39,420 nt of DNA. It comes from a virus. Below, piece by piece: positions 3-25,508 of the stretch. The position numbers and the translations under genes were made by a program. Within the stretch, counting starts at the first letter, position 1. Every line of letters starts with the position of its first letter. The notes beneath the pieces are model-generated. The model did no database searches, was not told the origin of the DNA, and worked only from the letters and a program-made list of their open reading frames with translations. The stretch is from positions 1-39,420 of the IMG/VR virus record IMGVR_UViG_3300043437_000144; one strand, given 5' to 3'.

Positions 3-3000
3 CAAAGAAATGCTTTAGCAATTGAAGTAGCTAAGATTATTGATAAGTATGGATTTGATTCTAGTGTAATACGTTTAAAAGAACTTTATACTAAGTTAAA
101 AGCTGCTGACAATGTGAGTGAGGATGATAAAGAAATTGAAGAGATGGACAGTAAGACTTTGGCTGAACGTATGCGTGAGCGTATGTTAGGAGGCTCTACT
201 GCAATTACTTCTAAAGCACAAACTATTAACGAAGAAACCAAACGAATTAGAAAAGCTTTAACTGAAGCTAGAAACGAAGGATTAAGTCAGGCTATTGACA
301 GATTAAGTGACCAAATTAATGATTTAGCAAATCGTAATAAATTTATTACCAACGAAATTAAAGGCATACGTGGTCGTATGAGTAACGAATTGCTAAGAGT
401 AGTAAGTGAGAGATTAACTCAGTCTGATGTATTTGATAAATTATTGAGACCTAATAGTTCTGATGTAATTAAAAAACTGGCTAATGAGTTTGGTATTCAG
501 AACAAATGGACAAAAGCTTCTTACACTAATATTGTTAATCCTATTTATCAGTTGTATGTTCACCGTTTAAACTCATTCAAAAAGGCCTTAGGTCAAGATG
601 CTAAGATGAACGTATTGTTTGCTATCTTACAGAAAGCAGGATTACGTGTAGTAGATAAAGACGCTGTAAGAGCGTATCCTCTAAGAGCAAACGGTAAGGA
701 GGATGGTGTACTAGACTTTAGTAAATCTAATGGAGTAGATGGTGTGCGTATTGGAGATATCACTGGTCAGTTGATTACTGCACACGTAGATATTGAAAAA
801 GAAGACCAAGTAGCTTGGATTAACTTAAACGTAAGAATCAATCCTATAACTAACTATATGGTTGGAGTAGGCTCTAGCTTCTCTGATATTGTTAAGTTTG
901 TAAATTTAGGTTATACAAAGCCAGGAGAAACAAAAACATCAAACAGTAGTATTATTACTTTTGGTAGAGGTAATTCTCGTATGAGTGACTCTGAGTTTGT
1001 CCAAAGCATACTGAGCGACATTTACCAAAATGGATTAACTTGGGCTAATGAAAATAATAAGATTTTACCTGAAGTTAATTTACTAGGTAATGCTTTAGGT
1101 AGATTCGGAGATTTCCGCTTAAAATCTTTAAAAAGTAAAGTTGCTAAAATCGTAGAAGCTGATCCATCTATAGTATTAACAGACACAACTGGTTATGGTA
1201 ACTTAATTAGATTTGTAAGTTTCCTAAGTGTAAGAGACCAGCAACAAAAATTGTTTACTCTTTCGTCCAACACAGACTTTGATACTTTCTCTCCACAGAA
1301 CTTTGAAGCTTTCCGTAAAGGAGCAAATGAGTTGCGTTTATTGATGAAAGAAAACTTCTTTAATGAGGATGGAGTTAAGAAAGTAGTTAATGAGAGTGTT
1401 GTTTCTCCTTTTCAAATTCAATCTGAAATCTTTGATTCTTTTGAAAAGATATTCCCTGTATCTGCAAATAGTAAATTAGGAACTTTAATTACTACTGCAT
1501 ACTCTGTGATTAGAAAAAGCAATCCTGGTTTAGAGTATGATCAGTTCTCTCGTGTATTAAAGAATGATTTGCTTTACGCTTTATTTAGAAATAACGTACC
1601 CCAAGTTGCAGAGATGGAAACTTTGTTGGATAAAAGAAATCCAGGAAACATTGTAGCTATCTACGAAAACTTAAAAGCACGATTAGTTGAGCGTAATATC
1701 TCTTCAGATAACTTAATCTTTGATGGAGTATCTTTTGCTACAGAGGATGAATCTGCATTTATTCGTACAGGTTTCTCTAGTGTAGATGCAGAAGACTCTG
1801 TAAATATTTTACGTGAAGAATTTGAGTTAGGTTTAAATTGGTCACATCCTAATCTTAATCCTGACAACGAGGAAGACGCAGAGCTTCAAAGAGACATGCA
1901 GTCTTTCTTCTTAGCCTATGGATATGCTGGTATTATAGGATCTCAACTTAATAAAAAATACGATTCTTATCTACCTTATATACCTGAGACAATCTACACA
2001 ACACGTATGCCTGATATCATCGAAGGCTTTACTCAAGAGATAGATGAAACAGTAGAACAGGTAAATGCCGCATTATACAATTTTGTATCCCAAGAAAAAT
2101 CAAAAGACGTAGCTAAGGAGGCAGGGGAATACTTAGTTGCTGATGAAGAAGACTATACTGACATCGTAAAAGATATAGTACAAGATAAACTTTATCAGTT
2201 GCTAAGAAACACTGATACATTTGTAGCTAACTTCTTACAGAGATTTATCAGCAATCACCCAGAGTTCCAAGGTAAGTATGGTACTAACAGAGATTTACTT
2301 TACTTTAAAGATTACGATTTAAGTCGTGAGTCTATAACCCCTACTATTAAAGGTGAGGTAGTACCAGTAGAACAACCCATTGTATCACGTAAATACACTC
2401 CAAAAGAAATCACTAAGCTAGAGCCTAATCAAGTATTTGTATTTGGGGCTAATACTGCTGGTCATCATGGAGCAGGCGGAGCTGGTTACGCAATGTTTGG
2501 TAATGCAAAAGCCAACTATACTGTTTATGATAAAGGTGCTAAAGGTTTGTGGGCCGAGTATGGTGTTGTAAATCAACTTATGCAAGGTCAACAAGGTATG
2601 TCCTATGGAGTAGTTACTAAGTTTACACAAATTGAAACAAATGAAAGTGGTGAGAACATAGTTCGTATGGGCGCTAAACGTAGCGTAGATTTGTCTGTAG
2701 TAGAAGATTCCATAATAGGTATGCTTCAAACTGCTCAGCAAAACCCTGAGTTAGAATTTTTAGTGACTGAGATAGGTATTAAGTTAGCTGGATGGAGTCC
2801 TAGTCAAATAAAAACTATCTTCGCTAAAAACATTAACCTATTAGGCGATAATGTTATCTTACCTAAAATCTTTGAGGTAAGAGACGCTAAGCCTATAGTG
2901 TCTATGTCTACTGTAGCCAGTGCTGCTAACTTAGAAGTAATACCAGAAAACTACGAAGCTATTCGCACAGAGGCTATTAAAGCATCTTTCCAAGAACTAT

Positions 3001-3047
3001 CTGAGCAAAACGAAGCCTTTAAGAATTTCTGTAAAGGCGGAAGTTAA
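3..3047 (+). CDS. Large virion-associated (polyvalent-type) protein with C-terminal macro-like domain, 5' partial
   Basis: The reading frame is open from the left edge, so the GTG at 114 is an internal codon and the true start lies outside the window. About 1,014 codons are visible. Residue numbers here count from the GTG. Residues 30-75 are helical and coiled-coil-like. Residues about 755-925 carry a block beginning VFVFGANTAGHHGAGGA, which resembles the phage A1S_2505-like/macro-type domain (FGxNxxGxHGAGxA), a fold that binds ADP-ribose-like ligands. The rest matches nothing I recognise. It is followed by two more giant genes on the same strand. Very long multidomain late proteins of this kind are typical of polyvalent proteins that are packaged and injected with the DNA. 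The domain call is from motif resemblance; the virion location is inferred. Confidence 0.7.
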   Translation, partial: QRNALAIEVAKIIDKYGFDSSVIRLKELYTKLKAADNVSEDDKEIEEMDSKTLAERMRERMLGGSTAITSKAQTINEETKRIRKALTEARNEGLSQAIDRLSDQINDLANRNKFITNEIKGIRGRMSNELLRVVSERLTQSDVFDKLLRPNSSDVIKKLANEFGIQNKWTKASYTNIVNPIYQLYVHRLNSFKKALGQDAKMNVLFAILQKAGLRVVDKDAVRAYPLRANGKEDGVLDFSKSNGVDGVRIGDITGQLITAHVDIEKEDQVAWINLNVRINPITNYMVGVGSSFSDIVKFVNLGYTKPGETKTSNSSIITFGRGNSRMSDSEFVQSILSDIYQNGLTWANENNKILPEVNLLGNALGRFGDFRLKSLKSKVAKIVEADPSIVLTDTTGYGNLIRFVSFLSVRDQQQKLFTLSSNTDFDTFSPQNFEAFRKGANELRLLMKENFFNEDGVKKVVNESVVSPFQIQSEIFDSFEKIFPVSANSKLGTLITTAYSVIRKSNPGLEYDQFSRVLKNDLLYALFRNNVPQVAEMETLLDKRNPGNIVAIYENLKARLVERNISSDNLIFDGVSFATEDESAFIRTGFSSVDAEDSVNILREEFELGLNWSHPNLNPDNEEDAELQRDMQSFFLAYGYAGIIGSQLNKKYDSYLPYIPETIYTTRMPDIIEGFTQEIDETVEQVNAALYNFVSQEKSKDVAKEAGEYLVADEEDYTDIVKDIVQDKLYQLLRNTDTFVANFLQRFISNHPEFQGKYGTNRDLLYFKDYDLSRESITPTIKGEVVPVEQPIVSRKYTPKEITKLEPNQVFVFGANTAGHHGAGGAGYAMFGNAKANYTVYDKGAKGLWAEYGVVNQLMQGQQGMSYGVVTKFTQIETNESGENIVRMGAKRSVDLSVVEDSIIGMLQTAQQNPELEFLVTEIGIKLAGWSPSQIKTIFAKNINLLGDNVILPKIFEVRDAKPIVSMSTVASAANLEVIPENYEAIRTEAIKASFQELSEQNEAFKNFCKGGS

Positions 3048-3062
3048 TTTTTAATTACCATT

Positions 3063-3070
3063 TATATTTG
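3063..3070 (+). promoter_or_regulatory. Possible Bacteroidota -7 promoter element before second giant gene
   Basis: TATATTTG matches the Bacteroidota -7 consensus TAnnTTTG and lies in the 28-nt gap between two giant genes, 5 nt before the ATG at 3076. I see no good -33 TTG at the usual distance. Transcription from here would give a nearly leaderless message. Identical octamers precede the genes at 9298, 20675 (- strand) and 22740 (- strand). Confidence 0.35.
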
Positions 3071-3075
3071 TAATA

Positions 3076-6075
3076 ATGATCTGCCCTAATCTAAATGATC
3101 CAGAAGTAGCAAAGAACTTTCGTTTGCTTGAATCTATAGTACCTGAGTCTGCATACTATCTTTGGAATAAGTATGAAGGAGAAGTTCCTGCTAAGTATTA
3201 TAACTTATCTAATGCAATTACTAAAAATACTATTATAGAACAAGAAGGCACAATGGAGTCGCGTGTGCCTACAAATGATATAATATCACGATATTTAAGA
3301 CAAGAGATTAGTTCAGACCTGGTAGAATCATTACGTCGAGATAGAGCGTTTTTAGCAGCCCAAGATAAATTTCAAGCTAGAACTATTGTTTACAATAAGA
3401 TACTAGAGTTAGAACAACAACGTATTGGTGGTAGAAAGTCTATCCGTATGCAAAATAATTATATTTTTCACGGAAACAATCCATCTTCAAGTAGGTCATT
3501 TAGCCGTAATCAGTTGTGGGCATACGCTCAAAAAACAGCTCAAGAAATAAATGAACGTTACGGTTTATTTGGTAGACAACAGATAGCTTGGGTTAGGCAA
3601 GAGTCTAATGGAACTACTTATGTAGAACTAGCTATTACTGCAGACTTTGCTGATAACATTATAAGATTAACTGATACAGTAAGTGATGCAGAGGTTCGCG
3701 CAGAACTTGAGTTAATTGACATGCAAGAAGCCTTAGAGAGAGAAAAAGCAGCAATTGCTGAGAAACTAATTCAAGGTAACGAACTGCTTATTGATGGGGA
3801 GGTTCTTCCTTTGAATGGAGAATTTGCTCAACGTGTAATGATTGAGCGAGCAGCTATTACCGAAGCTAATGTAGAAAAATACACAGCTACTTTAAATAAA
3901 CTAGTTACTAGATTTCCAGGAGTTACTTGGAAGTGGGATGCTAGCATACCAGGAGCAGGTAAGATTGATATGAATACAGGAGTAGTATTACTTAATCCTT
4001 ATTTTATCAATGACGAGACTCCTTGGCACGAGTTTGGACACATTTTAGTACGTGGTATTAGACAATCTAATCCTGAGTTATTTGAATCTTTAAAGAAAGA
4101 AGTAATTAAACTTCACGAAGATAATCCTACTATGTCGGCAAAGACTTTAGTAGAGAGTTTATATCCTGATTACACAGGAGATAAGTTTTGGGAAGAAGTT
4201 ATTACTACTGAGTTAGGTAGACAAGCAGCCGACTTTACGCCTAAGACTGATATCTTCTCAAAAATTAAAAAGTTCTTTACTGACCTATTAGCTTCTTTAG
4301 GGATGTATGGAGCTGATCCTAAAAATTTAGGTGATTTAGTTAAGAGTTTACAAGACCCTAATGCAACGTTTGAGTTTTATCCTAAAACACAAGCATTGTC
4401 AGATTATATGGAGAGTAGGCTACTAACTCCTGAGCAACAAGATGCTTTAACTATTTATGTTAAGAAAGACCCCAATGATCCTAACGAGTTCCAAACTGCT
4501 GCAGACCAAATTAAGCTAATTACTGAAGCCATCACTGATAGTGATATGGGACGTATGATTGAGCGTAATAAGTATTTTGCAGCTGAAGAGTTACGTAAAT
4601 CAGAATCTCTTCCTGCCGCAGGAGATATTTTAAACAAGAATAAAGGTCGCTTAGTATCTGTATTGACAAAAGAAGATGTAGCTGAAGCTGTATTAGACTT
4701 TGCTGAATACGTTAGGTACATGACTATCTATCTTAACTCTATACAAAGACATATCAATGCATTACAAAAAGCAACAGATATTCCTCCAGGAAAGAAATTA
4801 GGAGACTATCACAGAGCTTATTTACAAGCTACTGCAGCTAAGAAACAAATTGATGCATTGTTAGGTGTGATAGGAAGTCCTGAAAAGGGAGTATTTGGTC
4901 CTGAACTTAGGCAGAGTATTGAGGCAGCTAAGAGTAACCCAGCTTTATTTAAAAACCATCCAATAGCTAAAGCTTTGTTTTGGATGCAGCAGTCTGTAAA
5001 TACAATCATCTCTAATCACGAAAAACTCATTCAAGAACCTGTACTAGAAGAACTAGAGGATTATTTTAAAGAGGCTTCTGAAAACTTAAAAACAGTGTAC
5101 GACACAGACATAAATAATTTTATGTCTCGTTTAGCTCCTGAGAACTATGAAGTAGCAGGGCAATCTATACCTACTGATCCTAATGTAAAAGCAACCAGTA
5201 CTGTTCTTGTAGGTAAAGGTGTAGATACTAAGGTGCAAGTTTCATTTAATGATGGTACTCAAAGAGAATATTCTTTAAGTGATTTTACAAAGACATTTAG
5301 ATTAGGTAGCAAAGCAGTTGAGCGCCTTATTAATAAGGCTGCTAGTTTACAGAAAGAGTTTGAACAAAACGTACCTACAAAAGATAATATCCGTAAACAA
5401 TTAAAAGATACTAATAGTACGTGGTTTGCTGCTTTAGACACTGCAAGTACTACAAAAAATGCTGGTGTTCAAATCATAGCTACCTATTTACAGGGATTAG
5501 ATTCTGATTATAGAGCATCGCTTACTAGTATGCGAGGTGAGTTGGAGAAATTAGTCGACGAAGTGTTTGATGCACAAGGCCCTCAATTTGCTGGTTCTAT
5601 TGTAGATTCTAAGACTTTCTACAAAGGAATGTACAGGGAAGTTCCTCTATACGAAGTAGTAGATGGAAAGTTAGTAACAGATAAAGTTGTATTAGCTTTA
5701 AATAACTCTACTGATACTATTGCTATGCGTAATAGAATGACTGAGTTAAAATACATCATAGATTATTCTATGAATGAGATAGCTGACTTAGATCCTAACG
5801 ATAACAGCACACAAGCTCAAGCACGTAGATTAGCAGTAACACAAAAAATAGAACAGGCAGCTGAAGATTTAAAAGAGTTCCAAGCTAAATATACAGAACG
5901 ACCATTTACTGACGAGTATTACCAGATTCAAGAACAGCTTCCAGAAGATATTAGAGATAGAAGAAATGAACTTTACAGAGCTATGGCCGCAAGCCGTGCC
6001 TCTTTTGTAAGTGCAGACACTGTTGACTATGATGACTATGAGTTATTAAGAAGTTACCATGGAGTCATTTTATGA
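3076..6075 (+). CDS. Giant protein with zincin metallopeptidase motif, probable polyvalent virion protein
   Basis: A 999-residue protein. Residues 318-322 read HEFGH, a classic HExxH zinc-peptidase centre, preceded by a predicted beta strand (TGVVLLNP). About 50 residues on, WEEVITTELG (E373/E374) is well placed to supply the third, glutamate ligand, as in gluzincin-type domains of phage polyvalent proteins. The remainder is mostly helical, with long charged stretches after residue 480. The gene starts 28 nt after the preceding giant gene and overlaps the next by 17 nt, so the three are probably co-expressed. Likely role (inferred): packaged in the virion, processing phage or host protein at entry. 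The motif is seen directly; the substrate is unknown. Confidence 0.75.
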   Translation: MICPNLNDPEVAKNFRLLESIVPESAYYLWNKYEGEVPAKYYNLSNAITKNTIIEQEGTMESRVPTNDIISRYLRQEISSDLVESLRRDRAFLAAQDKFQARTIVYNKILELEQQRIGGRKSIRMQNNYIFHGNNPSSSRSFSRNQLWAYAQKTAQEINERYGLFGRQQIAWVRQESNGTTYVELAITADFADNIIRLTDTVSDAEVRAELELIDMQEALEREKAAIAEKLIQGNELLIDGEVLPLNGEFAQRVMIERAAITEANVEKYTATLNKLVTRFPGVTWKWDASIPGAGKIDMNTGVVLLNPYFINDETPWHEFGHILVRGIRQSNPELFESLKKEVIKLHEDNPTMSAKTLVESLYPDYTGDKFWEEVITTELGRQAADFTPKTDIFSKIKKFFTDLLASLGMYGADPKNLGDLVKSLQDPNATFEFYPKTQALSDYMESRLLTPEQQDALTIYVKKDPNDPNEFQTAADQIKLITEAITDSDMGRMIERNKYFAAEELRKSESLPAAGDILNKNKGRLVSVLTKEDVAEAVLDFAEYVRYMTIYLNSIQRHINALQKATDIPPGKKLGDYHRAYLQATAAKKQIDALLGVIGSPEKGVFGPELRQSIEAAKSNPALFKNHPIAKALFWMQQSVNTIISNHEKLIQEPVLEELEDYFKEASENLKTVYDTDINNFMSRLAPENYEVAGQSIPTDPNVKATSTVLVGKGVDTKVQVSFNDGTQREYSLSDFTKTFRLGSKAVERLINKAASLQKEFEQNVPTKDNIRKQLKDTNSTWFAALDTASTTKNAGVQIIATYLQGLDSDYRASLTSMRGELEKLVDEVFDAQGPQFAGSIVDSKTFYKGMYREVPLYEVVDGKLVTDKVVLALNNSTDTIAMRNRMTELKYIIDYSMNEIADLDPNDNSTQAQARRLAVTQKIEQAAEDLKEFQAKYTERPFTDEYYQIQEQLPEDIRDRRNELYRAMAASRASFVSADTVDYDDYELLRSYHGVIL

Positions 6076-9000
6076 TACTAATGGTAATTTAAAACCTCAA
6101 GGGAGTGAAAGTTACAGAATAGCTAAAGCTATCTATGATTGGAAGAGTGTAAGAAGAGCCAATCAAGTTGTAGAGTTCCCTCCTTTAAACCAGGAAACAC
6201 AAGAATTATTTCAAGCAGCATTAAATGAACAAAAATCTAAATTAAATAGTTCTTTAGCCAGTGCGACTACAGATGCAGAAAAACAATCTGCATACGAAAG
6301 TTATAATAGATGGTTAGACATTTATACTCGTACTATTTATAAACAAGAGTTTTATGATGAGCGTCAAGCTATTATTGACCAGATTCAAGATATTCTAGGA
6401 GAGCAAGGTCCTCAACTAAAGACTGCTTATGAATCTTTATTTAATCTTTTATTAGGTAAGAAAGACCGCGATGGTCACTATAAACCTTCTGAGATTAATG
6501 ATTCTGTACGACAAACTGCTAAAGCAATAGAAGAAGAAATTGAGATTATTAAAGCAATCGATAAAGGACAATCTACTTTAAGTAAAGACCAAAAAGAAGA
6601 ACTTAAATATTTGTTTGCTCAATTACAAGACTTGCAGTCTTCTACTAATAGTAAATATTATGATGAAACTGTAAATAGTATTAAAGCTAGTCTTCGCACA
6701 CAAATAACTACAGCTAATCCTACACTAGAAGTTGCTCAGATTGAAAGCTTAGTAAACAAAGCATTTAAACAATCTCAATGGTATCAAGACAACCATATTA
6801 CAAAGTCTCGTTACGATAAAGACTCACAACAGATGGTTCAAGTTTATGAGCCTCTTTATTTTTGGCGTGTAACTGTTCCTAATAATCCAGCGTATGTAGA
6901 GACAGAAGCCCCATCATTCTATTGGTACACTCCTAAAGTTTCTGAGCAATTTAGAAATTCTAATTATAGTCCTGGAAATACTACATTTAAAGAAGTTACT
7001 TCAGGCCCTTATTATAATAATGAATATACTAGTCTAACAGACAAACAAAAAAGTGCCCTTGAAAAAGTAAGAGAGTTCTATTATAGGAGTCAAGAAGGAA
7101 ACTATGCAAAAGATAAACCAGGGGATGTACTCCCTGGTGTTTATAAAACAGGAGCAGAAAATGCTATTGATGTGTTTAGTATGCGTGCTAATCCTCTTGC
7201 TAACATTGTAGAGGAAACTAAAAACTTTGTATTAGGTGCACGTACTGCAATGTCAGGTGTAGAAGAAACTACAGAAGAAGAAACACTAGATCCTTATGGA
7301 AACCCAATAGAAAGAGAATCTCGTAAGTTGTTTATGCGTTATAGCAAACCTTTGCCTATTGAACAGCAATCTTATGACTTATTAAGATCTATTGGTCTAT
7401 ATGCAGAGTCTTCTGCTAGATTTAAATCCCTAAGAAACTTACAGTCAACTGTGTTGGCTATGGAAGAGGTGTATGAAAATCTATCTGGAGTTAAAGAAGG
7501 AGGTGTAGTTCGTGATTTAATAGATAGACAGTTTTATGGTAAAGTAGTAAACAATCCTAAGAATGTCATAGGTAAGATTATGAATGCCTTATTTAATGTT
7601 GTAGGGCGTTTAGCTGGAACCAAGTCATTGGCTTATAACCTTATCAGTGCACCTGTCAATCAGTTTACGGGATATAAAAACAATTTAATCTTTACTAAGT
7701 CTAGTGGACTAAACTACTCAAACTACTTAGCTGCATATAAAGAAACCTTTGGTTTATCTTATGATTTCTTTACTTCCCACAATCAAACAGGTATGCAACC
7801 TATACGGATGCAGATTATTGATTTCTTTGGAGGAACTCAAGCCAACTATTCTGAAGACTTCGCCAAACTAACTAGTAGAGGATTACGCAAATATTCAAAG
7901 TTCTGGAGAGCTATAGGAACCTATAGAGACTATACAGAATATGATATTGCTGCTATGACTACATTTGCTTTCTTAGACAAATACAATGTAACGGCAGACG
8001 ATGGTAGTATCTACAAATTAAAAGATGCATTTGAATTAGTTGACGGAGTATTATCAATTAAACCTAATATAAAAATAAGCCCAGCTTTTCTCCAAAAGGT
8101 TAGAGATGAGATTCGATTAGCTAACTATAGAGCCCAAGGTGTTTATGATAAATTAGGGCAACCTACTGTTGCAAAATATGCACTAGTACGTCAGCTTTTA
8201 TTCTTGAAGAAGTGGTTGCCTATGCACACTAAAACTGAATGGGGCGGAAGTACAATTCACTATGGTTCTGGTATAAAGACTATAGGAGCTCACAGAGCCT
8301 TTGGTAGATTTCTACAAGAAACTTTTTACGAAAATGGTAAGTTTTGGACAGGCTATCAGAACTTGACAGCAGCAGAAAGAGCAGGTTTACAACAGTTTGG
8401 ATTAAACTATGGTGCATTTGTAATGTTTGCTAATGCTATTGGAGCAATGTCTGCTTATATGAATTGCGAAGATGATGGTGAAGCTAACTGGAAAGATTAC
8501 TTCTGTTTCTTCTCTAAAAAGATTAATAATGAAGTAGAAGGAGTATTTACAATTTGGGGAGCAAATGAGTTCCTATTTACTTATTTGAGAGAAAACGCTA
8601 ACGGTATTGGTGGTTGGGAAAAATTAGGCTGGTCTTTATTTGGTCCATTTAGTGTGTTTAGAAAGTTTGCTGATTTTGATGGGGGACTGTATAGTACAGA
8701 CCCTTACTATAAATATAGACCTAACTCTTATAAGATAGACTGGGATCGTACTCATCCAACCCAAGCAGGTAAACCTGGTTTACAAGTATTAGGTATGGAA
8801 TTGCTTGGTATGAGAGGATTGTCTTTGGGATTAGATCCACAATCTATGGATTATCAAAACCGTGCATTTAACTCGTATATGCCGAAAACCTATACTAGAG
8901 ATTTAAGAACTCGTTACAAAGAAAACTATGGTGGAGTAGAAACAATGAAGACTCGTACTGTAGGAGGTCAGCTTAAATTACAGTATAAGAAACAGCAAAA

Positions 9001-9211
9001 AGAAATTCAAAAGAAAATGCAAGCTTATACTTCTAGTGGAAGAGAGGTTCCTGCATCTTTATATGAAGAGTTAACTGATTTACAAACAAGATTTGCCAAA
9101 GCTGTATCTGAAATGGATGCAAGAAAGGATACTGATAAAGCATATACTCCAAGTTTATTTAGACCTTATTTCTTAACTAGAGAAGGACTAGACATCACTG
9201 AGGAGTTTTAA
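6059..9211 (+). CDS. Giant hypothetical protein, probable virion/injected protein
   Basis: A 1,050-residue protein whose ATG lies inside the end of the upstream gene (17-nt overlap), arguing for translational coupling. No catalytic motif is recognised. The N-terminal 270 residues are charged and helical. The region from about 500 to 830 is richer in aromatic and hydrophobic residues and contains a possible membrane-interacting segment near FGLNYGAFVMFANAIGAM. The C-terminus is lysine-rich and probably coiled-coil (QYKKQQKEIQKKMQ). Third of three consecutive giant late genes, it is best regarded as part of the same internal or ejected virion protein set. Function unknown; DFDGG near residue 877 is not enough to call an RNA polymerase. 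Confidence 0.75.
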   Translation: MESFYDTNGNLKPQGSESYRIAKAIYDWKSVRRANQVVEFPPLNQETQELFQAALNEQKSKLNSSLASATTDAEKQSAYESYNRWLDIYTRTIYKQEFYDERQAIIDQIQDILGEQGPQLKTAYESLFNLLLGKKDRDGHYKPSEINDSVRQTAKAIEEEIEIIKAIDKGQSTLSKDQKEELKYLFAQLQDLQSSTNSKYYDETVNSIKASLRTQITTANPTLEVAQIESLVNKAFKQSQWYQDNHITKSRYDKDSQQMVQVYEPLYFWRVTVPNNPAYVETEAPSFYWYTPKVSEQFRNSNYSPGNTTFKEVTSGPYYNNEYTSLTDKQKSALEKVREFYYRSQEGNYAKDKPGDVLPGVYKTGAENAIDVFSMRANPLANIVEETKNFVLGARTAMSGVEETTEEETLDPYGNPIERESRKLFMRYSKPLPIEQQSYDLLRSIGLYAESSARFKSLRNLQSTVLAMEEVYENLSGVKEGGVVRDLIDRQFYGKVVNNPKNVIGKIMNALFNVVGRLAGTKSLAYNLISAPVNQFTGYKNNLIFTKSSGLNYSNYLAAYKETFGLSYDFFTSHNQTGMQPIRMQIIDFFGGTQANYSEDFAKLTSRGLRKYSKFWRAIGTYRDYTEYDIAAMTTFAFLDKYNVTADDGSIYKLKDAFELVDGVLSIKPNIKISPAFLQKVRDEIRLANYRAQGVYDKLGQPTVAKYALVRQLLFLKKWLPMHTKTEWGGSTIHYGSGIKTIGAHRAFGRFLQETFYENGKFWTGYQNLTAAERAGLQQFGLNYGAFVMFANAIGAMSAYMNCEDDGEANWKDYFCFFSKKINNEVEGVFTIWGANEFLFTYLRENANGIGGWEKLGWSLFGPFSVFRKFADFDGGLYSTDPYYKYRPNSYKIDWDRTHPTQAGKPGLQVLGMELLGMRGLSLGLDPQSMDYQNRAFNSYMPKTYTRDLRTRYKENYGGVETMKTRTVGGQLKLQYKKQQKEIQKKMQAYTSSGREVPASLYEELTDLQTRFAKAVSEMDARKDTDKAYTPSLFRPYFLTREGLDITEEF

Positions 9212-9686: not shown

Positions 9687-10106
9687 ATGAAAACGACTAC
9701 ATTACTATATTCCGTGACTACTCTCTGTGCTTTCTTGGGTACTTATTTCTTTAATTTAGGTGCTGATAATGCTGAACAGTATTTAACTGTTGTGGCTGTT
9801 GTGTTTATTGATGGTTTCTTTGGTGTGTGGGCTGGCACTAAACTAGAAGGATTTGAAACCCGTAAAGCTATTCGTGTAGTACAAACTGCCGTAACTTGGG
9901 TTATCTTACTTACAGGAGTTCTTATGATTGAGAAAAGTTTTCAAGGTACGTCTTGGTTAAGCGAAACTCTTGTAGCTCCATTTGTTACTTTCCAATTAGT
10001 GAGCGCAGTAAAGAATGCTGCTCGTGCTGGATTAATAAAAAACGATCTTCTTCAATACTTATTAGAGAAGATAGATAAACATAAAGTAAATGCAAGAAAA
10101 AAATAA
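9687..10106 (+). CDS. Holin-like small membrane protein
   Basis: A 139-residue protein with three or four hydrophobic segments (about residues 8-25, 31-50, 70-92, 100-115) and a basic C-terminal tail (HKVNARKK). The segment FIDGFFGVWAGTKLEGFETRK resembles the D-x-x-x-G-x-x-A-x-K signature of holin family 4-type proteins. It is followed, with a 17-nt overlap, by a membrane-anchored coiled-coil protein, the usual neighbourhood of phage lysis cassettes. No endolysin is seen in this window, so it may lie elsewhere. Holin is likely but other small inner-membrane roles are possible. Confidence 0.6.
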   Translation: MKTTTLLYSVTTLCAFLGTYFFNLGADNAEQYLTVVAVVFIDGFFGVWAGTKLEGFETRKAIRVVQTAVTWVILLTGVLMIEKSFQGTSWLSETLVAPFVTFQLVSAVKNAARAGLIKNDLLQYLLEKIDKHKVNARKK

Positions 10107-10428: not shown

Positions 10429-10681
10429 AGAGTTCCTTAAAGGGATACAAGCTAGGGAGCGTGTCGTTGCGCTTAATAAGATTAGACACACCGATAGTTT
10501 AATCATTAAGAATTATAAAGACTCTATAGTTCCAAACTTACAAGTAGCATTAGATACTACTGAAGTAGAGCTAGTTAAGTATTATAAACTCTATGATGAG
10601 AGCCAGCAAAAAGTATGTTTTTATAAAAAAGGATTCTTTGCTTCTCTTGCATTAGTTGTTTTATTAATAATTTTTAATTAG
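10328..10681 (+). CDS. Exported protein with C-terminal anchor, overlapping spanin-like partner
   Basis: A 117-residue protein whose only Met start (10328) lies 101 nt inside the upstream gene, in a different frame. The N-terminus is a Sec signal peptide (MTLFRLLLIVCLIL, then SSYSQS, a typical Bacteroidota cleavage site before Q/S). The middle is helical and charged. Residues about 101-117 form a terminal membrane segment (FFASLALVVLLIIFN). Exported N-terminus plus C-terminal anchor is the layout of unimolecular spanins, but no clear lipobox is present (IVC at 9-11 is poor). Either an o-spanin-like partner of the upstream gene or a u-spanin-like protein. Ends in TAG, so TAG is a stop here. 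Confidence 0.5.
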   Translation: MTLFRLLLIVCLILKAQSSYSQSVDSLPLKELNKEFLKGIQARERVVALNKIRHTDSLIIKNYKDSIVPNLQVALDTTEVELVKYYKLYDESQQKVCFYKKGFFASLALVVLLIIFN

Positions 10682-10718
10682 ATTTGACTTTAACATTATA
10701 AGTTAAGGTATTCAATCT

Positions 10719-10988
10719 ATGACTTTACATGAGCTTGAATTAGAAATTAACCAGTTTTTCTTAGATTCTGAGAAAGAAGCTGATGGAAATGGTCGCACAT
10801 TAGGAGTATATCCTAATGCTGTTATTCTGACTCAAGAACATTACAAAGAGTTCTTAAGAGAGTTATTTAAAACCCAGGGAGATGCTGAAGTTCCAGACGG
10901 AGTATTGATATCTTCTATTTGTGGGTTAAAAGTAATTTTCTCTGAAGATGTAGAGAAACCTAAAGTTGTAAGAATAACTCGGGGATGA
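10719..10988 (+). CDS. Hypothetical protein overlapping the tmRNA 5' end
   Basis: An 89-residue soluble protein with an acidic helical N-terminus and a C-terminal block VLISSICGLKVIFSEDV that looks like a strand-turn-strand motif seen in small phage proteins of unknown function. Its stop codon (TGA, 10986-10988) lies inside the first 8 nt of the tmRNA gene, so processing of the tmRNA 5' end would cut the message at its stop codon. No function assigned. Confidence 0.6.
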   Translation: MTLHELELEINQFFLDSEKEADGNGRTLGVYPNAVILTQEHYKEFLRELFKTQGDAEVPDGVLISSICGLKVIFSEDVEKPKVVRITRG

Positions 10989-11330
10989 ATTGGAATCGAC
11001 AGGATTGATTGGGTTTAATGTTCACGCAGAGAGATGGTACTGTTCTCTATAATCACGTATCAGAAAATTAAACGGCAACGTTGAAAAATCAAGCATGACT
11101 TTTGAAGATGCAATCTCTTTCGTGAACGAATACGAGATGGCGGCCTAAGTCAAGGGGTAGTCATACCTTGCAACAGAAACTGGCAATTAGGTTTCCTGGC
11201 TTTCGTAAAACCAGGTGGTGGAATCTGACTTCGGTCAACCCTTACGGTGCAAAGTTTACTTAGTACTAAGCGTGTAAAGGACATTAGATTGCGACTTTCT
11301 CTGGACGGGGCTTCGATGCCCCCATCTCCA
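10981..11330 (+). ncRNA. ssrA: Transfer-messenger RNA (tmRNA)
   Basis: The 5' end GGGGATGAATTGG followed by TCGACAGG matches the conserved tmRNA tRNA-like D region. The 3' end CATCTCC (11323-11329) pairs with GGGGATG (10981-10987) to give a 7-bp acceptor stem with a G3-U70 wobble, the alanine identity element. The discriminator is A (11330), but the next bases are CAA, so CCA is not encoded. The T-arm GGGGC-TTCGAT-GCCCC pairs fully but leaves a 6-nt loop instead of 7. An internal tag frame ends in Ala-Ala-stop. tmRNA with SmpB rescues stalled ribosomes by trans-translation. No smpB gene is seen here, so host SmpB would be used. Confidence 0.93.
11074..11148 (+). other. tmRNA tag-peptide reading frame
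   Basis: An open frame inside the tmRNA ends GAG ATG GCG GCC TAA, giving a tail NEYEMAA that resembles the proteolysis tag ending (YALAA) of bacterial tmRNAs. If the resume codon is GGC at 11074, the tag has 24 residues (starting GNVEKS), longer than the usual 8-15. The exact resume codon is inferred; a later start in the same frame would shorten the tag. Confidence 0.65.
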
Positions 11331-11338
11331 CAAACAAA

Positions 11339-11363
11339 AAACCCAGCTTATTAGGCTGGGTTT
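11339..11363. terminator. Bidirectional intrinsic terminator between convergent arms
   Basis: AAACCCAGC (11339-11347) pairs with GCTGGGTTT (11355-11363) around a 7-nt loop. On the - strand it is followed by a strong U-tract (TTTTTTGTTTG); on the + strand only by TTTCTCGTTTC. It therefore ends the - strand arm firmly and probably also the + strand late arm and tmRNA precursor. Confidence 0.85.
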
Positions 11364-11383
11364 CTCGTTTCATATGGTAATGG

Positions 11384-11707
11384 TTAGATTTTTGGTCCGC
11401 CAGTTAGTTCATAGAACTTAGCAATCTCATCAGGATTAGTAAGATTAGCTACAATAGGCTCAGAAGTAATTTCAAACTTCTTTACCTTAACAGGAACACG
11501 CTGCTTAGTTACAGGATCAATCTTAAACTCATATTCAACTGGGTTAAGTTTATCAGAGTTGTGGGCTAGCACAACAGATAAACCTTCTTTGGTTGGATAA
11601 GTCATAATAACTTTATCTAAATCAAAGGAGTAACCTTTTTCAATGATGAGTTCCATCTCATCTTCATGCTCTTGCTTTTTTCTTTCGGTGTAATAAAATA
11701 AGTTCAT
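11384..11707 (-). CDS. Hypothetical protein
   Basis: A 107-residue soluble protein, last gene of the long - strand unit, 20 nt before the terminator hairpin. The N-terminal 25 residues are charged and helical (ERKKQEHEDEMEL); the rest alternates strands and lysine-rich turns. One nucleotide separates it from the upstream membrane-protein gene, so the two are surely co-transcribed. No family recognised. Confidence 0.6.
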   Translation of the reverse strand: MNLFYYTERKKQEHEDEMELIIEKGYSFDLDKVIMTYPTKEGLSVVLAHNSDKLNPVEYEFKIDPVTKQRVPVKVKKFEITSEPIVANLTNPDEIAKFYELTGGPKI

Positions 11708-16056: not shown

Positions 16057-16917
16057 TTAAAAAATATATCGAATAGTGTCCCAGGGTATAAACTGGTCGT
16101 GTAAATCAGTCCACTGTTTAATATACTTTGCTTTTAAGTCGTGTCTGTATCTAATGTTTTTACCTCCGTACTGGCTTATTTTGTCTTCTTGGATTTCAGG
16201 ATTCCATAATAAATGCTCTCCTCTGTAATCATAAAGCAAGTTTCTTTGGTGTTTGCCTTCGTTATGTGTGAGAAAGATAACTTCAGCTTTAACTAATTCC
16301 TTGTACTTTACGTGCTTATCTACCTCTCCGAATAAATACATGTAATGGTCTAGCCATTTATCGTGTACTATTACTGGAGAGAAATTGATATGAACGTCAT
16401 AGCCTGCCTCTATAAATCGGTCTATTGCTTTTATACGCTCGATTATAGGACTAGTATTAGGTTCAAGTAAGTCTGCATAGTGCTGAGGCATTAGAGAAAA
16501 TCTAACTCTAACTTTACCTTCGGGATTAAACTCAAGCATAGTATCGTTTACATACTTAGTAGCAAGTGAAGCCATTGCTCTTGGATGGTCTTTAAAGAAC
16601 TGAAATATGTACTGCCAAGGATAAAACTTTAAATGAAGTGCGAAGTCTTCATTACAACTAATGTCATAAGTTATGAACTCTTCGTGAGTCTGATTGGGTT
16701 TATCTACTACTGCAAATGTACAATGATTATTGATTGCTGTAAGTATATCGTTAATATTGTTAGCTACAGTTAGCCCATCAGGCTGGTGTCTTTTCATATA
16801 ACAGTAAGAACAATTGTACAAACACCCGTAGCCGAAAGACGGACTAATAAAGTCCGTCGATCTGCCACTAGGTCTTATGTCAAATGTCTTTCTAGTTACA
16901 TTCTGAACTAGAATCAT
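16057..16917 (-). CDS. Radical SAM protein, spore photoproduct lyase-like
   Basis: A 286-residue protein. Residues 32-39 (CLYNCSYC) give the C-x3-C-x2-C motif that binds the 4Fe-4S cluster cleaving S-adenosylmethionine. The preceding TRKTFDIRPSG and SPSFGYGC, and the later RVRFSLMPQ and AGYDVHINFSPVI, match the architecture of spore photoproduct lyase-family enzymes, which repair a UV-made thymine dimer in spore DNA. A phage copy may repair photolesions or modify another substrate. It is a little shorter than bacterial lyases (about 340). Neighbours are uncharacterised small genes. Confidence 0.75.
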   Translation of the reverse strand: MILVQNVTRKTFDIRPSGRSTDFISPSFGYGCLYNCSYCYMKRHQPDGLTVANNINDILTAINNHCTFAVVDKPNQTHEEFITYDISCNEDFALHLKFYPWQYIFQFFKDHPRAMASLATKYVNDTMLEFNPEGKVRVRFSLMPQHYADLLEPNTSPIIERIKAIDRFIEAGYDVHINFSPVIVHDKWLDHYMYLFGEVDKHVKYKELVKAEVIFLTHNEGKHQRNLLYDYRGEHLLWNPEIQEDKISQYGGKNIRYRHDLKAKYIKQWTDLHDQFIPWDTIRYIF

Positions 16918-19078: not shown

Positions 19079-19700
19079 TTACTTCTTCCAATATTTTGAA
19101 ATACTTGGGTCGGCCTTCAATGGTACTCTTTTACAGAATATATTGCCTGCCTTAACCATAGCAGCCTCAAGTGCGTGGGCTACTTCTTCAGAGATACTTT
19201 CTGGACACTCTACTAAATTTTCGTCGTGTACTGTGTTAATTATCTTTACAGTAAATAAAAGTTGATTGGGAATCAAATAGTCTTCCCAAAAATAAACGCA
19301 CGATAATTTAGTGATCTCTGCACTCTCCCCTTGAATAGGATAGTTTAAAGACATTCGCTCAATTTCTCCGCGTTTCATAAAATAACGAGATACTTGTTCC
19401 TTCATCTTCGAGTAAGTTACGGTTCTCTGAGCTTTATGTCTCTTGTAGTCATCCCAAAATCCTTTTACTTCTAGTGCTTTTTTTGCTTCTAAGAAACTTT
19501 CATAGTAATCTACGTAGGATTTCTTCCCAGTAATCTTTGAGATCAATACGTAGCCGTTATCGACCCCAAACTTTTTAACTTGTTCAAAATAGTTCTTTAG
19601 TCCTGGAAACGCACGAAAGTATGCTTCATAGATTTTATTACCTTCTTCAAGAGAAATACCTAAGTTTTCTGCTATAGTAATACCTTGGCCACCGTAGTTT
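19079..19700 (-). CDS. Family A DNA polymerase, exon 2 (C-terminal part)
   Basis: Second exon of the polymerase; it joins exon 1 (ends 20718) across a group I intron. The frame is open through the whole exon and begins with the last base of the codon for I460 and then NYGGQG, the end of motif B (O helix). Motif C is HDENLVECP (H618, D619), with the second catalytic aspartate. The Met nearest the 5' side (19546) is internal, not a start. Joined length is 2,001 nt or 666 residues, normal for phage family A polymerases with a proofreading domain. Confidence 0.88.
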
Positions 19701-19925
19701 CACATTGTTATCCTAAAGGCTTTTTATCCTCTAGTTCTAACAGTTCTTATTCCTGTTAGGTCGGCATACATTTTAATCCCCAACTTAATGGTAGGATCTG
19801 GACACTCGTGGGAGGATTATATTTATTCACCTCCTATGCTCTACGGTTCTTATAAGCCTTACGTAATCTTATAAGTTACCTCGGTATTGGGATTCACACC
19901 TTCGACCGATTTTGCCCAATTTTAC

Positions 19926-20675
19926 TTACTCATTACTGAGTAAGGCGACAAATTTGATATATTTTCGATTTAATCTTGTATTCTCAGTACTATCTTGATA
20001 CAAAAAAGAAAAGAATTTTTTAAACTCTGACTTTCTCTCAATCCAAATATCGTAATGATTTGTTCCTTTTCTTAGTCTTAATTTACTATAAATTCCTACA
20101 GAACTTAAATAATTGACTATTTGATTTCCCAACTCAAAACTTCCTGTAGTGATTTTACATGTTTGTTTTTTGTTGTGTACTGAACCATCCCCGTCAAAAA
20201 TACCTCTTACAATATGATTAGTTAAGGGGAATTTCAAAGAAATAGTTTTTGATTTTTTTGGAACAATTCCTAGCTCAATTAAATTACTGCAAATAATTTT
20301 ACTACTAAAATACATTACATGTAACTTATTTGATTGATAGTGGTAATTAGCATTACAGTAGTTTAGAAATTTTTCTTTAATTTCTAAATCTATTGTCGCT
20401 AGTGATAGTCTGTGGGATCTTTGTACTACTGAGATGTTTCCATCTGCAATAATGTATCCTACCCAGTACTGACTTTCTGGAGTTAATAAATTAAATAAAT
20501 CTGGATTAATACTTGAAGTTTTTCCAGATCCTCTAGCTATATTGTGCTTTTTAGCAACAATAGAAGGGTAGTCTTTATAAACTCCAAGTGCTTTACAAAT
20601 TTCTTTAATTTCCATTCCAGACGAATACAATTTTAACGTTTGCATTTCTACTTGTTCAGTGTATTTTTTTGACAT
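19926..20675 (-). CDS. LAGLIDADG homing endonuclease
   Basis: A 249-residue protein from ATG 20675; an in-frame ATG at 20693 adds six residues but overlaps a -7 promoter element. An N-terminal helix-turn-helix-like region (MEIKEICKALGV) is followed by two LAGLIDADG motifs, GYIIADG (residues 73-79) and GIFDGDG (158-164), each with its metal-binding Asp, so it should act as a monomer. It cuts intron-less alleles and drives intron spread. Its stop codon is close to the start of the intron's 3' core. Confidence 0.9.
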   Translation of the reverse strand: MSKKYTEQVEMQTLKLYSSGMEIKEICKALGVYKDYPSIVAKKHNIARGSGKTSSINPDLFNLLTPESQYWVGYIIADGNISVVQRSHRLSLATIDLEIKEKFLNYCNANYHYQSNKLHVMYFSSKIICSNLIELGIVPKKSKTISLKFPLTNHIVRGIFDGDGSVHNKKQTCKITTGSFELGNQIVNYLSSVGIYSKLRLRKGTNHYDIWIERKSEFKKFFSFLYQDSTENTRLNRKYIKFVALLSNE

Positions 20676-20679
20676 AGTA

Positions 20680-20687
20680 CAAATATA
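20680..20687 (-). promoter_or_regulatory. Possible -7 promoter element for the homing endonuclease
   Basis: On the - strand TATATTTG is followed after 4 nt by the ATG at 20675. It lies inside the intron, 30 nt from its 5' end. The region 19 nt further upstream reads TTAG, only a partial -33 element. Independent, nearly leaderless expression of the endonuclease would avoid translation from the unspliced polymerase message. Confidence 0.4.
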
Positions 20688-20717
20688 ATGCATTTTGAAA
20701 ATTATCCTAATATGTTT

Positions 20718-22096
20718 ATCGCGAAACCAGCTGACTTTGCTGCTTGTCTTTTGTCTTTATGTTTAGACTTAATTTCATTTAAATCTAAGCCTTCTAACTC
20801 TGGATACATCTTAGATGCAATAAAGCTATGCATATCAGCCAAGCCCAAGTCATAAAACTGTAGTAGATTAGGGTCAAGACATTTATTGGCTAGAACAATT
20901 TGTTCTTGGCCAGAATAGTCACATCCAATTATAACATTACCTTCTTCGGCTACGAAGCAACTTCTAGTTTCTTCATCACTAGGAATGTTTTGGAGATTAG
21001 GATAAGCCGTTCCTGTGGCTCTATCTTTTCCTCCGCTAGACAACCTACCAGTATTCATTAATTGTTTGTATTGGGTGTGGATGCGTCCACTGACGGGATT
21101 AATCAGCTTAATAAAGTTTTCTCCATAAGTTCCTAAATCCTTTTGTGCTTGTTTATACCTTAAATAGGTTTTGATAATAGGAAACTGTTTTTCGAACTTT
21201 ACTAAATGCCCTGCTTCTATAGTGTTCTTTGTTTCTCCTTTTTCAACTACTTCTGTGTTGACTCCAAGGGTTTTAAAGAACTGGACTACTTGTGCGGCAG
21301 AGTTCCAATTAATTATTGTTTTTACTTTAGCACTAAATAAATCTGTTTGATAGTTTATAAACCTAGTCATATTGTTATCCAATATAAACTGGTCTAGTTC
21401 CTGCTCAGCTCTATCTAGTTCTTCTTTTGTTTTGGACATTTTTGTTCGCCATTTGCCCTCATCTAACTTAATACCGCAGTATTCTATATAAGCTAGCACT
21501 TTTACAAACCTGTTGTCTAATTCAATTGAAACCATAGAGTTCTGCTCTTTAAGTATCTTTAATTGAAGTATCCTGAGTTGATGCAAGTGAGCTACGTCAG
21601 TGGCTGCGTAGATTACAAATGGTACAGTAAACTTTCCGTTGATGTTAAGACGTTCTGTTTTATCTAGAACTATTCCTATGTGGCGATACACGGAGTCTGC
21701 TAAACTGCATCTATAAGAGTCGATGCCCAGCTTAATAGTTTTTTCTCCCAGGAAAGTATCATACACTTCAGTAGGAACAATTCTATGGTGATATAAGAAT
21801 CTTAAATCAAACTTTAAGTTATGTCCAATAAGAGGTTTTGTTTCTAGAAGATTTTTAAAGAGTTGGATGTCTACACTTGTTGTGTCAATAACGAACTGAT
21901 GTTCAGCATTACCTAGCTGAATTGTGATAATATCACAAGTATAGGGGTCTAAACCCAAAGTTTCCGAGTCAAATCCAATCCAATCTAGTTTTTCTAGATA
22001 ATCTAAAGCTTGTTTTGTGGTTATGCATTTTATCTCTGGATGTTTCCCACAAATAGCTGCGTAGTTTATATCACTCTCTGTTACAAATCCTATCAT
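20718..22096 (-). CDS. Family A DNA polymerase, exon 1 (3'-5' exonuclease and polymerase N-terminal part)
   Basis: Exon 1 encodes residues 1-460 of the replicative polymerase. DnaQ-type proofreading motifs are present: ExoI FDSETLGL (D43, E45), ExoII GHNLKFDLRFL, and ExoIII YAATDVAHL. The polymerase domain follows with motif A IGCDYSGQEQ (D393) and the first half of motif B, KRQAAKSAGFAI (R450, K454). Read without splicing it ends ILG-stop just after the intron boundary. The start overlaps the NinG gene by 4 nt, so the two are co-transcribed from the promoter at 22744-22751. It should copy the phage genome with the primase, helicase and SSB-like protein encoded upstream. Confidence 0.92.
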
Positions 22097-23686: not shown

Positions 23687-23959
23687 TTAATTTTCTTTTT
23701 GGTTTTTGATGTGTGTTGATTCTACTTGTTTAGTGATCATGGTATTTCTACCTGTGTATTTTATAAATTCTAGTAAAAGTTTAAGTTCAGACATCTGGCC
23801 TTCTGCTGTGCAGTAGTCATATTCTGTACCTTTGTTGTGGACTTTGTTTATTTCGTCCATCCGATCATTAATATGCTTGATTAAACTAGCTCTAAAATGA
23901 TAGTAAGTCATCAATTCTTCTTTGATGATGTTGTCGTTGTTGTCTAAAAACTCAGCCAT
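23687..23959 (-). CDS. Hypothetical protein
   Basis: A 90-residue helical protein with a YYHFRASLIKHINDRMDEINK helix and a second helix MSELKLLLEFIKY; no family recognised. It overlaps the end of the uracil-DNA glycosylase exon by 16 nt and is followed after 2 nt by the DUF932 gene, so all three are co-expressed. Confidence 0.55.
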   Translation of the reverse strand: MAEFLDNNDNIIKEELMTYYHFRASLIKHINDRMDEINKVHNKGTEYDYCTAEGQMSELKLLLEFIKYTGRNTMITKQVESTHIKNQKEN

Positions 23960-24438
23960 TCTATTTTTTCTCCGTTGTTTCTATGTAAAATTTCGTTTAT
24001 TTCTGTAAAATGGTCGCACTCCCATGTTCCGCCTTTATATACAGCAGATACTGGATGAGAGGCAAGCATAACGTGGTGGAACTTTTTGTTTACCATAGGC
24101 GCAAATCGCTGTGCATCTTTGCCCCAGAAACAAAAAATAACTCCTGTAGTATGTTCCGAAATAGCTTTAAGAACATATTCTGTAAAATGAATCCAATGCT
24201 GTAAATGTGAACCAGCTTTTCCGTGCTCCACAGTTAAAGCAGCATTAATTAAAAATACTCCTTGCTGTGCCCACTTCTCTAAATCTAAATCCTCAGGAAA
24301 GTTTAAATCATCTTTATAAACTGTGTTCTTGAGATTAGCATAAATCATTCTTAAAGAGGGCGGCACATATCTTTTATCTGTAGGAGCAAATGCTAGTCCG
24401 CTAGCTACTGGCTTCCCGTCATATAAATTTGGATAAGG
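23944..24438 (-). CDS. ung: Uracil-DNA glycosylase, exon 2
   Basis: Second exon, encoding residues 68-231 of a family 1-like glycosylase. It begins PYPNLYDGKPVASGLAF, completing the water-activating motif (GxDPYxxxxxAxGLxF), and carries a later substrate motif ASHPVSAVYKG (HPSPLS-like, with the conserved His) and GVFLINAALTVEHG. The apparent start Met at 24468 lies in intron sequence. The host-type QDPYH is MDPYP here, an unusual variation. Joined length 231 residues matches Ung. Confidence 0.88.
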   Translation of the reverse strand, partial: PYPNLYDGKPVASGLAFAPTDKRYVPPSLRMIYANLKNTVYKDDLNFPEDLDLEKWAQQGVFLINAALTVEHGKAGSHLQHWIHFTEYVLKAISEHTTGVIFCFWGKDAQRFAPMVNKKFHHVMLASHPVSAVYKGGTWECDHFTEINEILHRNNGEKIEWLSF

Positions 24439-24715
24439 CATTGTGTTATCGTATAAGTTCTTTATCATATACTTCTATACATTACTGCATAGTTCAGACT
24501 ATATCATCACTAAATAAATTAGTGCAGGGTGCTCGTGTCAACATTACTGTCCTCAGCATAATCTGTTTGGACTCGGTTGTTAGTCGTTGAACCTTCAAAG
24601 ACATTACTGTCTAAGCTTGGCTGCTGATTGTCCTTTACAGGATGTTCCAGCAATTCTCCCTGTTTTACATGGACCCTATATGCATAAGGTATTAATTTTT
24701 ATGCAAGTTTTTTTA
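24439..24715 (-). ncRNA. Group IA intron in uracil-DNA glycosylase gene, ORF-less
   Basis: A 277-nt intron with textbook core sequences, in order on the - strand: P (AATTGCTGGAACATCC), Q (AATCAGCAGCCAAG), R (GTTCAACGACTA) and S (GATATAGTC). The 5' exon ends in T and the intron ends in G, and splicing restores GGA-ATG-GAT|CCT-TAT (GMD-PY). Three short hairpins with GTAA tetraloops occur (stem AGACA/TGTCT; a GACA/TGTT stem; CTATGCA/TGTATAG near the 3' end, a likely P9). Too small for an endonuclease, so it depends on self-splicing alone or another protein for mobility. Confidence 0.93.
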
Positions 24716-24916
24716 ATCCATTCCAATAATAACTACTCTAACATTAGATAAAGGAGTTACTTGAAAAGCTCTAAATACATTTTTACTTTCAGGAAATACA
24801 CTTGTCTTGGTCCTTCTGTCCTGTAAAAATGTTGCTAGTTTTTTAAAGTAATCCGATTCAATAATAGGCTGTAAGACTCTATACCAATCATCTGGTATAT
24901 TAATTAATTTGTTCAT
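24716..24916 (-). CDS. ung: Uracil-DNA glycosylase, exon 1
   Basis: Encodes residues 1-67, ending VRVVIIGMD, where D67 is the catalytic Asp of the GQDPYH-type motif. The intron follows immediately; unspliced reading stops at TAA directly after the Asp codon. The enzyme removes uracil from DNA, limiting damage from cytosine deamination and dUMP misincorporation. The gene begins 17 nt inside the upstream DnaA-like gene. A split exactly between D and PY means that no active protein arises without splicing. Confidence 0.88.
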
Positions 24917-25508
24917 CGATTTGTTCTCTTAAAATTGCCGACCACCTAGTTCTTTCTAAAAACTTGGTTCCGTGGCTTGTCTTTTCTTTGGGTTTCAGTA
25001 TTATAAAAGAGTCTGGTACTTCACTTTGCAGATGGTCTAAGATTTTCTTGAAAATTCTACAGTATCTTACATTAGTTTGTAGTAAGTTGTTGTGAGTTTC
25101 TAGTGCATGTAATATCGTACTATGATCTCGCATAAACATATTACCTACTGTTACTGTAGTATGGTCAAAATAAACGTAGAAAAGAACCATTGCTTGCTTT
25201 CTACAGTCATTAACCTCCCTCTTTCTAGAATTACTTAAAACTTGACTTAATAGTACTCTGTGATAATTACAGATAGTGTGTAGTATACTTAGTTCTTCTT
25301 CTGACCAAGTGTAAGCAATAGGCGCTACCTTTACTGTATCTGCCCTGTTTCTTTTTGTTGAATCTAAGTATTTGGTTAATTTTCTTTTAGGAATACCGTG
25401 AAAATTTACAAAGTCCTTGTAAACTTTTTCCAAAGCCAAAGGCTGATTCTTTAAGTCTTTCCTGCTAAATTCTATTGCTTTTATAATATAGTCTTTAATT
25501 GTTTGCAT
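24900..25508 (-). CDS. DnaA domain IV-like DNA-binding protein
   Basis: A 202-residue protein without an ATPase domain. Residues about 95-160 resemble the DnaA box-binding domain IV: NDCRKQAMVLFYVY (cf. xxRQIAMYLxRE), TVGNMFMRDHSTILHALETH (cf. IGxxFGGRDHTTVLHA), with RDHSTILHA at 128-136. Family members of DnaA use these residues to read the DnaA box. The N-terminal 90 residues match nothing. It overlaps the primase gene upstream and ung downstream. Likely roles are origin recognition or competition with host DnaA; both are inference. Confidence 0.75.
   Translation of the reverse strand: MQTIKDYIIKAIEFSRKDLKNQPLALEKVYKDFVNFHGIPKRKLTKYLDSTKRNRADTVKVAPIAYTWSEEELSILHTICNYHRVLLSQVLSNSRKREVNDCRKQAMVLFYVYFDHTTVTVGNMFMRDHSTILHALETHNNLLQTNVRYCRIFKKILDHLQSEVPDSFIILKPKEKTSHGTKFLERTRWSAILREQIDEQIN

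Follow-up and report, generated by a model that had tools for sequence, protein, structure and literature searches.

tmRNA releases ribosomes that have stalled and attaches a short tag to proteins left incomplete. Among phages, tmRNA genes are known from the mycobacteriophages Bxz1, Cali, Catera and Wildcat and from Bacillus phage G (PMC4131195), from huge phages that also encode SmpB (PMC7162821) and from Bradyrhizobium phages (PMC12656738), and 402 of 18,146 phage genomes encode one (PMC9004378). How does the tmRNA gene of the window, an IMG/VR record of 39,420 bases, compare with these? Like Bxz1, Cali, Catera, Wildcat and phage G, the phage of the window has a complete ssrA in its genome, but it belongs to a different phage lineage; the window tmRNA, searched together with its flanks, had no nucleotide match in the phage collection. 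The methylophage Melnitz and its relatives (PMC9004378) are similar in that some members of the group, but not all, carry a tmRNA, and the same roles have been proposed for it. However, the Melnitz tmRNA is two-piece and permuted and is preceded by an early promoter with a glutamine riboswitch, whereas that of the window is one-piece and lies behind lysis genes. Suggested roles for phage tmRNAs are that ribosomes are kept free, that host proteins are recycled or that host rescue is blocked. Judged by titles and term counts, none of the papers searched that mention both crAss-like phages and tmRNA appears to deal with such genes in these phages. Phage tmRNAs as such are already known; what is noteworthy here is the conservation of a long tag at the level of the peptide.

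A complete one-piece tmRNA gene and its homologues

The Rfam covariance model RF00023 matches the window at 10981-11333 (+) along the full model (1-374), with 90.4 bits against a gathering score of 47 and an E value of 5.1e-34. A first-pass annotation had read a complete phage tmRNA at 10981-11330 and named a covariance search as the check. The full-length Rfam match bears out the gene and its start at 10981; the end does not hold, 11330 being the discriminator base, and with the three nucleotides at the CCA position (CAA) included the one-piece ssrA gene occupies 10981-11333. ARAGORN, on the other hand, called no tmRNA on the window, most likely because of a 6-nt T-loop in place of one of 7 nt, and the case suggests that this program overlooks tmRNAs whose T-loop is shortened. 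The minimum free energy of the full-length RNA was not significant (z -1.27), and the predicted fold did not reproduce helix 2; a nonsignificant folding energy says little about a pseudoknotted RNA. The case for a tmRNA is based on the covariance model and covariation, not on thermodynamic folding.

Complete homologues are present in 13 other phage contigs: pattern scans of IMG/VR gave 11, and L286 and L288 contributed two more, with a cut copy in L284. ARAGORN calls all 13, with tags of 24-25 aa, and the window copy is the sole complete one that it rejects. Among 79 viral contigs related by their polymerase, many of them fragments, RF00023 scored above cut-off in five, and the Leptolyngbya phage, the 80th record of that set, gave a weak match to the T-loop only. 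The gene is absent from most of the phage's near relatives and is thus dispensable. A 15-base pattern from the 3' part of the tmRNA matched 13 contigs, all unrelated, and was discarded as a source of homologues. One of those 13, L012, has a permuted beta-type tmRNA with the tag ANDDVYNLPLAA elsewhere in the contig (2950-3377, -).

Secondary structure

Arms were extracted by script and compared in 12 distinct sequences, the window counted in. Rereading of the sequence upheld the proposed acceptor stem with its G3-U70 wobble: GGGGATG (10981-10987) pairs with CATCTCC (11323-11329), followed by the discriminator A and CAA (through 11333), and 7/7 pairs form in all 12 sequences. The G3 (10983)-U70 (11327) pair of this alanine-type acceptor is likewise found in 12/12 copies. 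Helix 2 is built from the outer arms GGTTTAATGTT (11012-11022) and GACATTAGATT (11280-11290) and from the inner arms CACGC (11023-11027) and GCGTG (11270-11274), the latter with 5/5 pairs in the window. Outer helix 2 forms 11/11 pairs in ten copies and 10/11 in L286 and L288, where its sequence has been largely replaced, and the T-stem is paired 5/5 in every copy. As plain counts with no phylogenetic null model, two-sided changes affect two of the seven pairs of the acceptor stem, seven of the 11 of outer helix 2 and all five of the T-stem. Acceptor stem, T-stem and helix 2 are maintained through two-sided base changes.

Pseudoknot PK1 (11028-11032/11044-11048 and 11035-11040/11057-11062) is paired in 12/12 sequences and almost invariant, and so offers little covariation. 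The PK2 helix (11160-11184), GTCA(T)/(C)TGGC, is weakened in the window to 4/5 pairs; other copies have GTCAT/ATGGC, GCCAT/ATGGT or GTCAT/ATGAC. In the PK3 region the window has a hairpin CCTGG/CCAGG (11195-11215), which is CTTGG/CCAAG in most relatives; PK3 and PK4 were judged by eye only. The copy in L110 (3181-3529, +) lacks the TGACTTCGGTCA hairpin and has a different PK3 sequence and a 25-residue tag ending in KVAA.

Two supposed oddities of the 3' part fare differently once the homologues are read. The end is indeed A-CAA (11330-11333), with no encoded CCA, but this is ordinary and common to nearly all homologues: ACAA ends 10 of the 12 distinct copies (TCGA in L106, ACCA in L286), CCA is not encoded in 10 of the 11 distinct phage copies other than the window, and among Bacteroidota tmRNAs the ends are ACAT in L202 and ACGA in L207. 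It is known that not every tmRNA gene encodes the CCA (PMC11915505). Sequence and folding also confirm the T-arm GGGGC-TTCGAT-GCCCC (11307-11322), a 5-bp stem bearing the TTCRA loop motif, with a C-G closing pair and a 6-nt loop. All 11 other distinct copies have the usual 7-nt T-loop and a G-C closing pair. A 7-nt loop is not a condition of the Rfam model, and its length was not used to exclude the window copy from the tmRNAs. The T-loop oddity is thus present but private to one contig, and carries little weight.

A long tag conserved as a peptide

The tag frame (11074-11148) opens at the resume codon GGC at 11074, runs for 24 codons, GNVEKSSMTFEDAISFVNEYEMAA, and stops at TAA (11146-11148); the tag ends in EYEMAA, of the hydrophobic-Ala-Ala type. 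The context of the resume codon and the tag stop are conserved across relatives. A 24-codon tag had been read from the likely resume codon in the window, and in all relatives ARAGORN independently picks the homologous codon, giving tags of 24 aa in ten other distinct copies and 25 aa in L110. In the tmRNA database, tags of 10 aa are the commonest (PMC11915505).

Is the peptide conserved, or only the RNA? Nine distinct 24-codon tags gave, in frame, pS 0.41, pN 0.10 and dN/dS 0.19, against 1.28 and 1.50 in the two shifted frames, figures that are approximate, coming from a pairwise count that pools related sequences. Variable columns of the tag fall at codon positions 1/2/3 in the ratio 8/5/15 (P 0.004 under random placement). 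Because in-frame dN/dS is low relative to the other frames and the codon positions are biased, the constraint is on the peptide and not on the RNA only, and the tag peptide is under purifying selection. L112 and L286 share 90% identity in the tag and 73% elsewhere, whereas the window and its near relatives are 74-79% alike in the tag and 83-88% elsewhere; these opposite trends mean that the tag DNA is not always the slowest part, although the peptide is held.

A degenerate tag-motif search of 2.9 million viral contigs returned 11 matches, each a tmRNA gene of this group. The motif was found in no ORF of ten loci beyond the tmRNA itself, and tblastn with the 24-aa tag found no match in phages. 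The long phage tag was not seen among the bacterial tmRNAs examined; when the tag pattern was run with three mismatches against 396 Bacteroidota genomes, 16 had a bare match versus 4 with the reversed control pattern. Bacteroidota host tmRNAs share with the phage gene a Gly resume codon, a tag starting with GN and an (L/M)AA end, and the Bacteroidota tags found end in MAA, as the phage tag does. Their tags are only 9-10 aa long (GNTYNYAMAA, GNTQYAMAA, GNNYDYAMAA), compared with 24-25 aa in the phages, and nucleotide identity is about 48%. The phage frame, GN...Y-(L/M)AA, looks like a Bacteroidota-like tag enlarged by about 14 residues, a resemblance and not a statement of descent. Cyanobacterial tmRNAs are one-piece in the genomes read, like that of the window, and have fairly long tags of 14-20 aa, but these start with Ala and mostly follow ANNIV..VAA or ..YALAA, unlike the phage tag.

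Of the traits singled out as odd in the first-pass annotation, the long tag is the one that proved special, nearly unchanged in related phages and unlike the bacterial tags examined. Its near-constancy suggests that the tag itself matters to these phages, and the conservation of so long a peptide, unlike the host-type tags seen, over diverged phage tmRNAs argues for a benefit to the phage. We offer only tentatively that the long tag may be a working phage peptide and not a mere linker to a degradation signal, its inner part (MTFE-A--FV-EY) being recognized by a phage or host partner and the tagged proteins of infected cells then meeting a fate unlike that of host-tagged ones. The tag provides a short defined peptide for mass spectrometry searches and for tests with reporter proteins.

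Genomic setting, origin and host

DNA polymerase A (PolA) and primase of the window match crAss-like phage records, and on these replication genes the phage is assigned to the crAss-like phages. Related contigs are numerous, some of 90-125 kb, which suggests that the window is a fragment. The tmRNA, first placed at the end of the late arm, does lie at the end of a rightward block, behind the holin gene and facing leftward genes. The holin gene (lysis; 9687-10106, +; phrog_199, PF05105), upstream and in the same direction, encodes a protein 60% identical to the holin of Flavobacterium phage immuto. Immediately upstream is an 89-aa gene of unknown function (10719-10988, +), whose stop TGA (10986-10988) is in and next to the acceptor stem; in the five relatives read, the upstream stop precedes the tmRNA by 16-22 nt. 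With that stop within the acceptor stem, any lysis-gene transcript would need to be cut to give a mature 5' end. Directly 3' of the tmRNA, between the converging genes, is a terminator-like inverted repeat, AAACCCAGC-TTATTAG-GCTGGGTTT (11339-11363, +), and several relatives have a different paired sequence in the same place. A consensus terminator scan did not report the repeat at 11339-11363, and no promoter-like sites were found in 10600-11500 with a sigma-70 consensus, which may not suit this host. The opposing block begins with a 107-aa gene of unknown function (11384-11707, -), and this border is conserved whether or not a relative has the tmRNA.

Relatives without a tmRNA, such as L022, L072 and L029, keep both borders, with a gap of approximately 30-100 nt between the matched parts. 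Two clades that have the tmRNA at the same junction do not group as sisters in the polymerase tree, a distribution that fits either an ancestral location followed by losses or more than one gain at a single site. The L080/L103 record has it elsewhere, and tRNA genes are near the copies in L103, L107, L110, L111, L286 and L288.

A tree with 30 bacterial tmRNAs groups the phage copies in a single clade (support 1.0) with a long branch, and they are approximately 48% identical to any bacterial copy in the panel. It is from this single clade, long branch and low identity that the gene looks long resident in phages and not a recent host gene. The nearest group is the Bacteroidota, with support of only 0.45. 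An exact tmRNA pattern had no match in the bacterial and archaeal genome collection, and the best matches of a nucleotide search in 194 cyanobacterial and 297 Bacteroidota genomes were mostly to the tRNA-like 3' end only. A polymerase search of bacterial and archaeal genomes for a host or prophage gave nothing above 44% identity, and thus no host assignment. Among the primase matches summarized, most are to phages of Bacteroidota (Bacteroides, Flavobacterium, Cellulophaga) or to unnamed gut phages, and the holin too resembles that of a Flavobacterium phage, but among isolates the polymerase is closest to the Leptolyngbya (cyanobacterium) phage, at 52%. The host is probably a member of the Bacteroidota, the more likely of these two groups.

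Proposed mechanism and alternatives

The covariance model, the homologues, the covariation and the peptide-level selection on the tag sustain the proposal of a phage-encoded tmRNA with a phage-specific tag and confirm that a crAss-like phage carries a real tmRNA gene. The whole is best explained by a tmRNA gene of a phage lineage that acts through ordinary trans-translation, a reading to which we give a probability of about 0.78. The tmRNA would probably be transcribed with the late lysis genes, matured at both ends by host RNase P and 3' processing enzymes, supplied with CCA by the host CCA-adding enzyme and charged with alanine through G3-U70. Host SmpB would carry the charged tmRNA to ribosomes stalled on broken mRNA, where the ribosome would switch to the internal frame and add the 24-residue phage-specific tag ending in MAA. 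The ribosome would then be freed and the tagged product marked, most likely for degradation by a ClpXP-type protease. From what is established about tmRNAs we infer late co-transcription, processing, CCA addition, charging and tagging. Eight phage records, of which six measure 100-122 kb, contained no SmpB match, whereas ten bacterial control genomes were positive, so SmpB of the host is probably used. Ribosome rescue or the marking of host proteins during infection, the roles suggested in the first-pass annotation, may be what such a gene provides.

Does the copy in the window itself function? Its 6-nt T-loop, inverted closing pair and weakened PK2 indicate that it may work poorly. It could be decaying, inactivated by a T-loop deletion and the weakened PK2 in a group that is functional as a whole: the 6-nt loop with a C-G closing pair is unique among the 12 distinct sequences, ARAGORN rejects this copy only, PK2 has a mismatch and the upstream gene extends into the acceptor stem. 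We consider decay unlikely, however, as no pair is lost in acceptor stem, T-stem or helix 2, the T-stem has two-sided changes of its own, and the tag frame is intact and constrained in frame. That the 6-nt loop instead arose by faulty sequencing or assembly of a metagenome contig, the true gene being normal, is quite conceivable if short of probable. It is a one-base change in a single contig, beside a run of five C, where all relatives have 7 nt, but one indel cannot explain why the closing pair is altered as well (C-G for G-C). The 6-nt T-loop is either a private, lineage-specific change or an assembly error.

Could the RNA act against the host instead, capturing SmpB or alanyl-tRNA synthetase as a decoy or inhibitor so that host trans-translation is blocked? 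A form with the tRNA-like domain only is known from phage DS6A, and such a molecule inhibits tmRNA (PMC11915505, PMC4131195), but a decoy needs neither pseudoknots nor a 24-codon tag kept as a peptide, and we regard this role as very improbable. As integration into ssrA is common in bacteria (PMC11915505), the gene might also be the remnant of a host ssrA acquired in that way. This we reject: the gene is complete, the phage copies form one clade (1.0) with about 48% identity to any bacterial copy of the panel, none of the hosts tested showed the tag, the window proteins examined included no integrase, and no host genome with a closely matching ssrA was found among the genomes searched.

Other features of the window

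The gene for DNA polymerase A is split (19079-22096, -). The part at 20702-22096 ends in FAINYGG (motif B), the remainder is at 19079-19546 (PF00476), and between the two is an ORF for a LAGLIDADG endonuclease (19926-20693). Rfam gave no intron match at the split polymerase; polymerase matches in many relatives break off at one shared position, residue 464, and the gene order there is also that of Leptolyngbya phage Lbo-JY46. A Group I intron (RF00028, 74.4 bits) lies at 24475-24724 (-), between the ORFs 24713-24916 and 23944-24468. It probably interrupts the gene of the latter ORF, because the match of that ORF to phrog_12143 begins only at profile position 69. Three very large proteins (977, 999 and 1050 aa) encoded at 114-9211 (+) have no Pfam match, and the first alone matches a PHROG, over a short stretch; tblastn with the second found nothing in the phage collection. 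The gene at 24900-25508 (-), adjoining the primase, encodes a bacterial DnaA C-terminal helix-turn-helix domain (PF08299), and that at 16057-16917 (-) a spore photoproduct lyase-like protein (PF20903, 86.9 bits).
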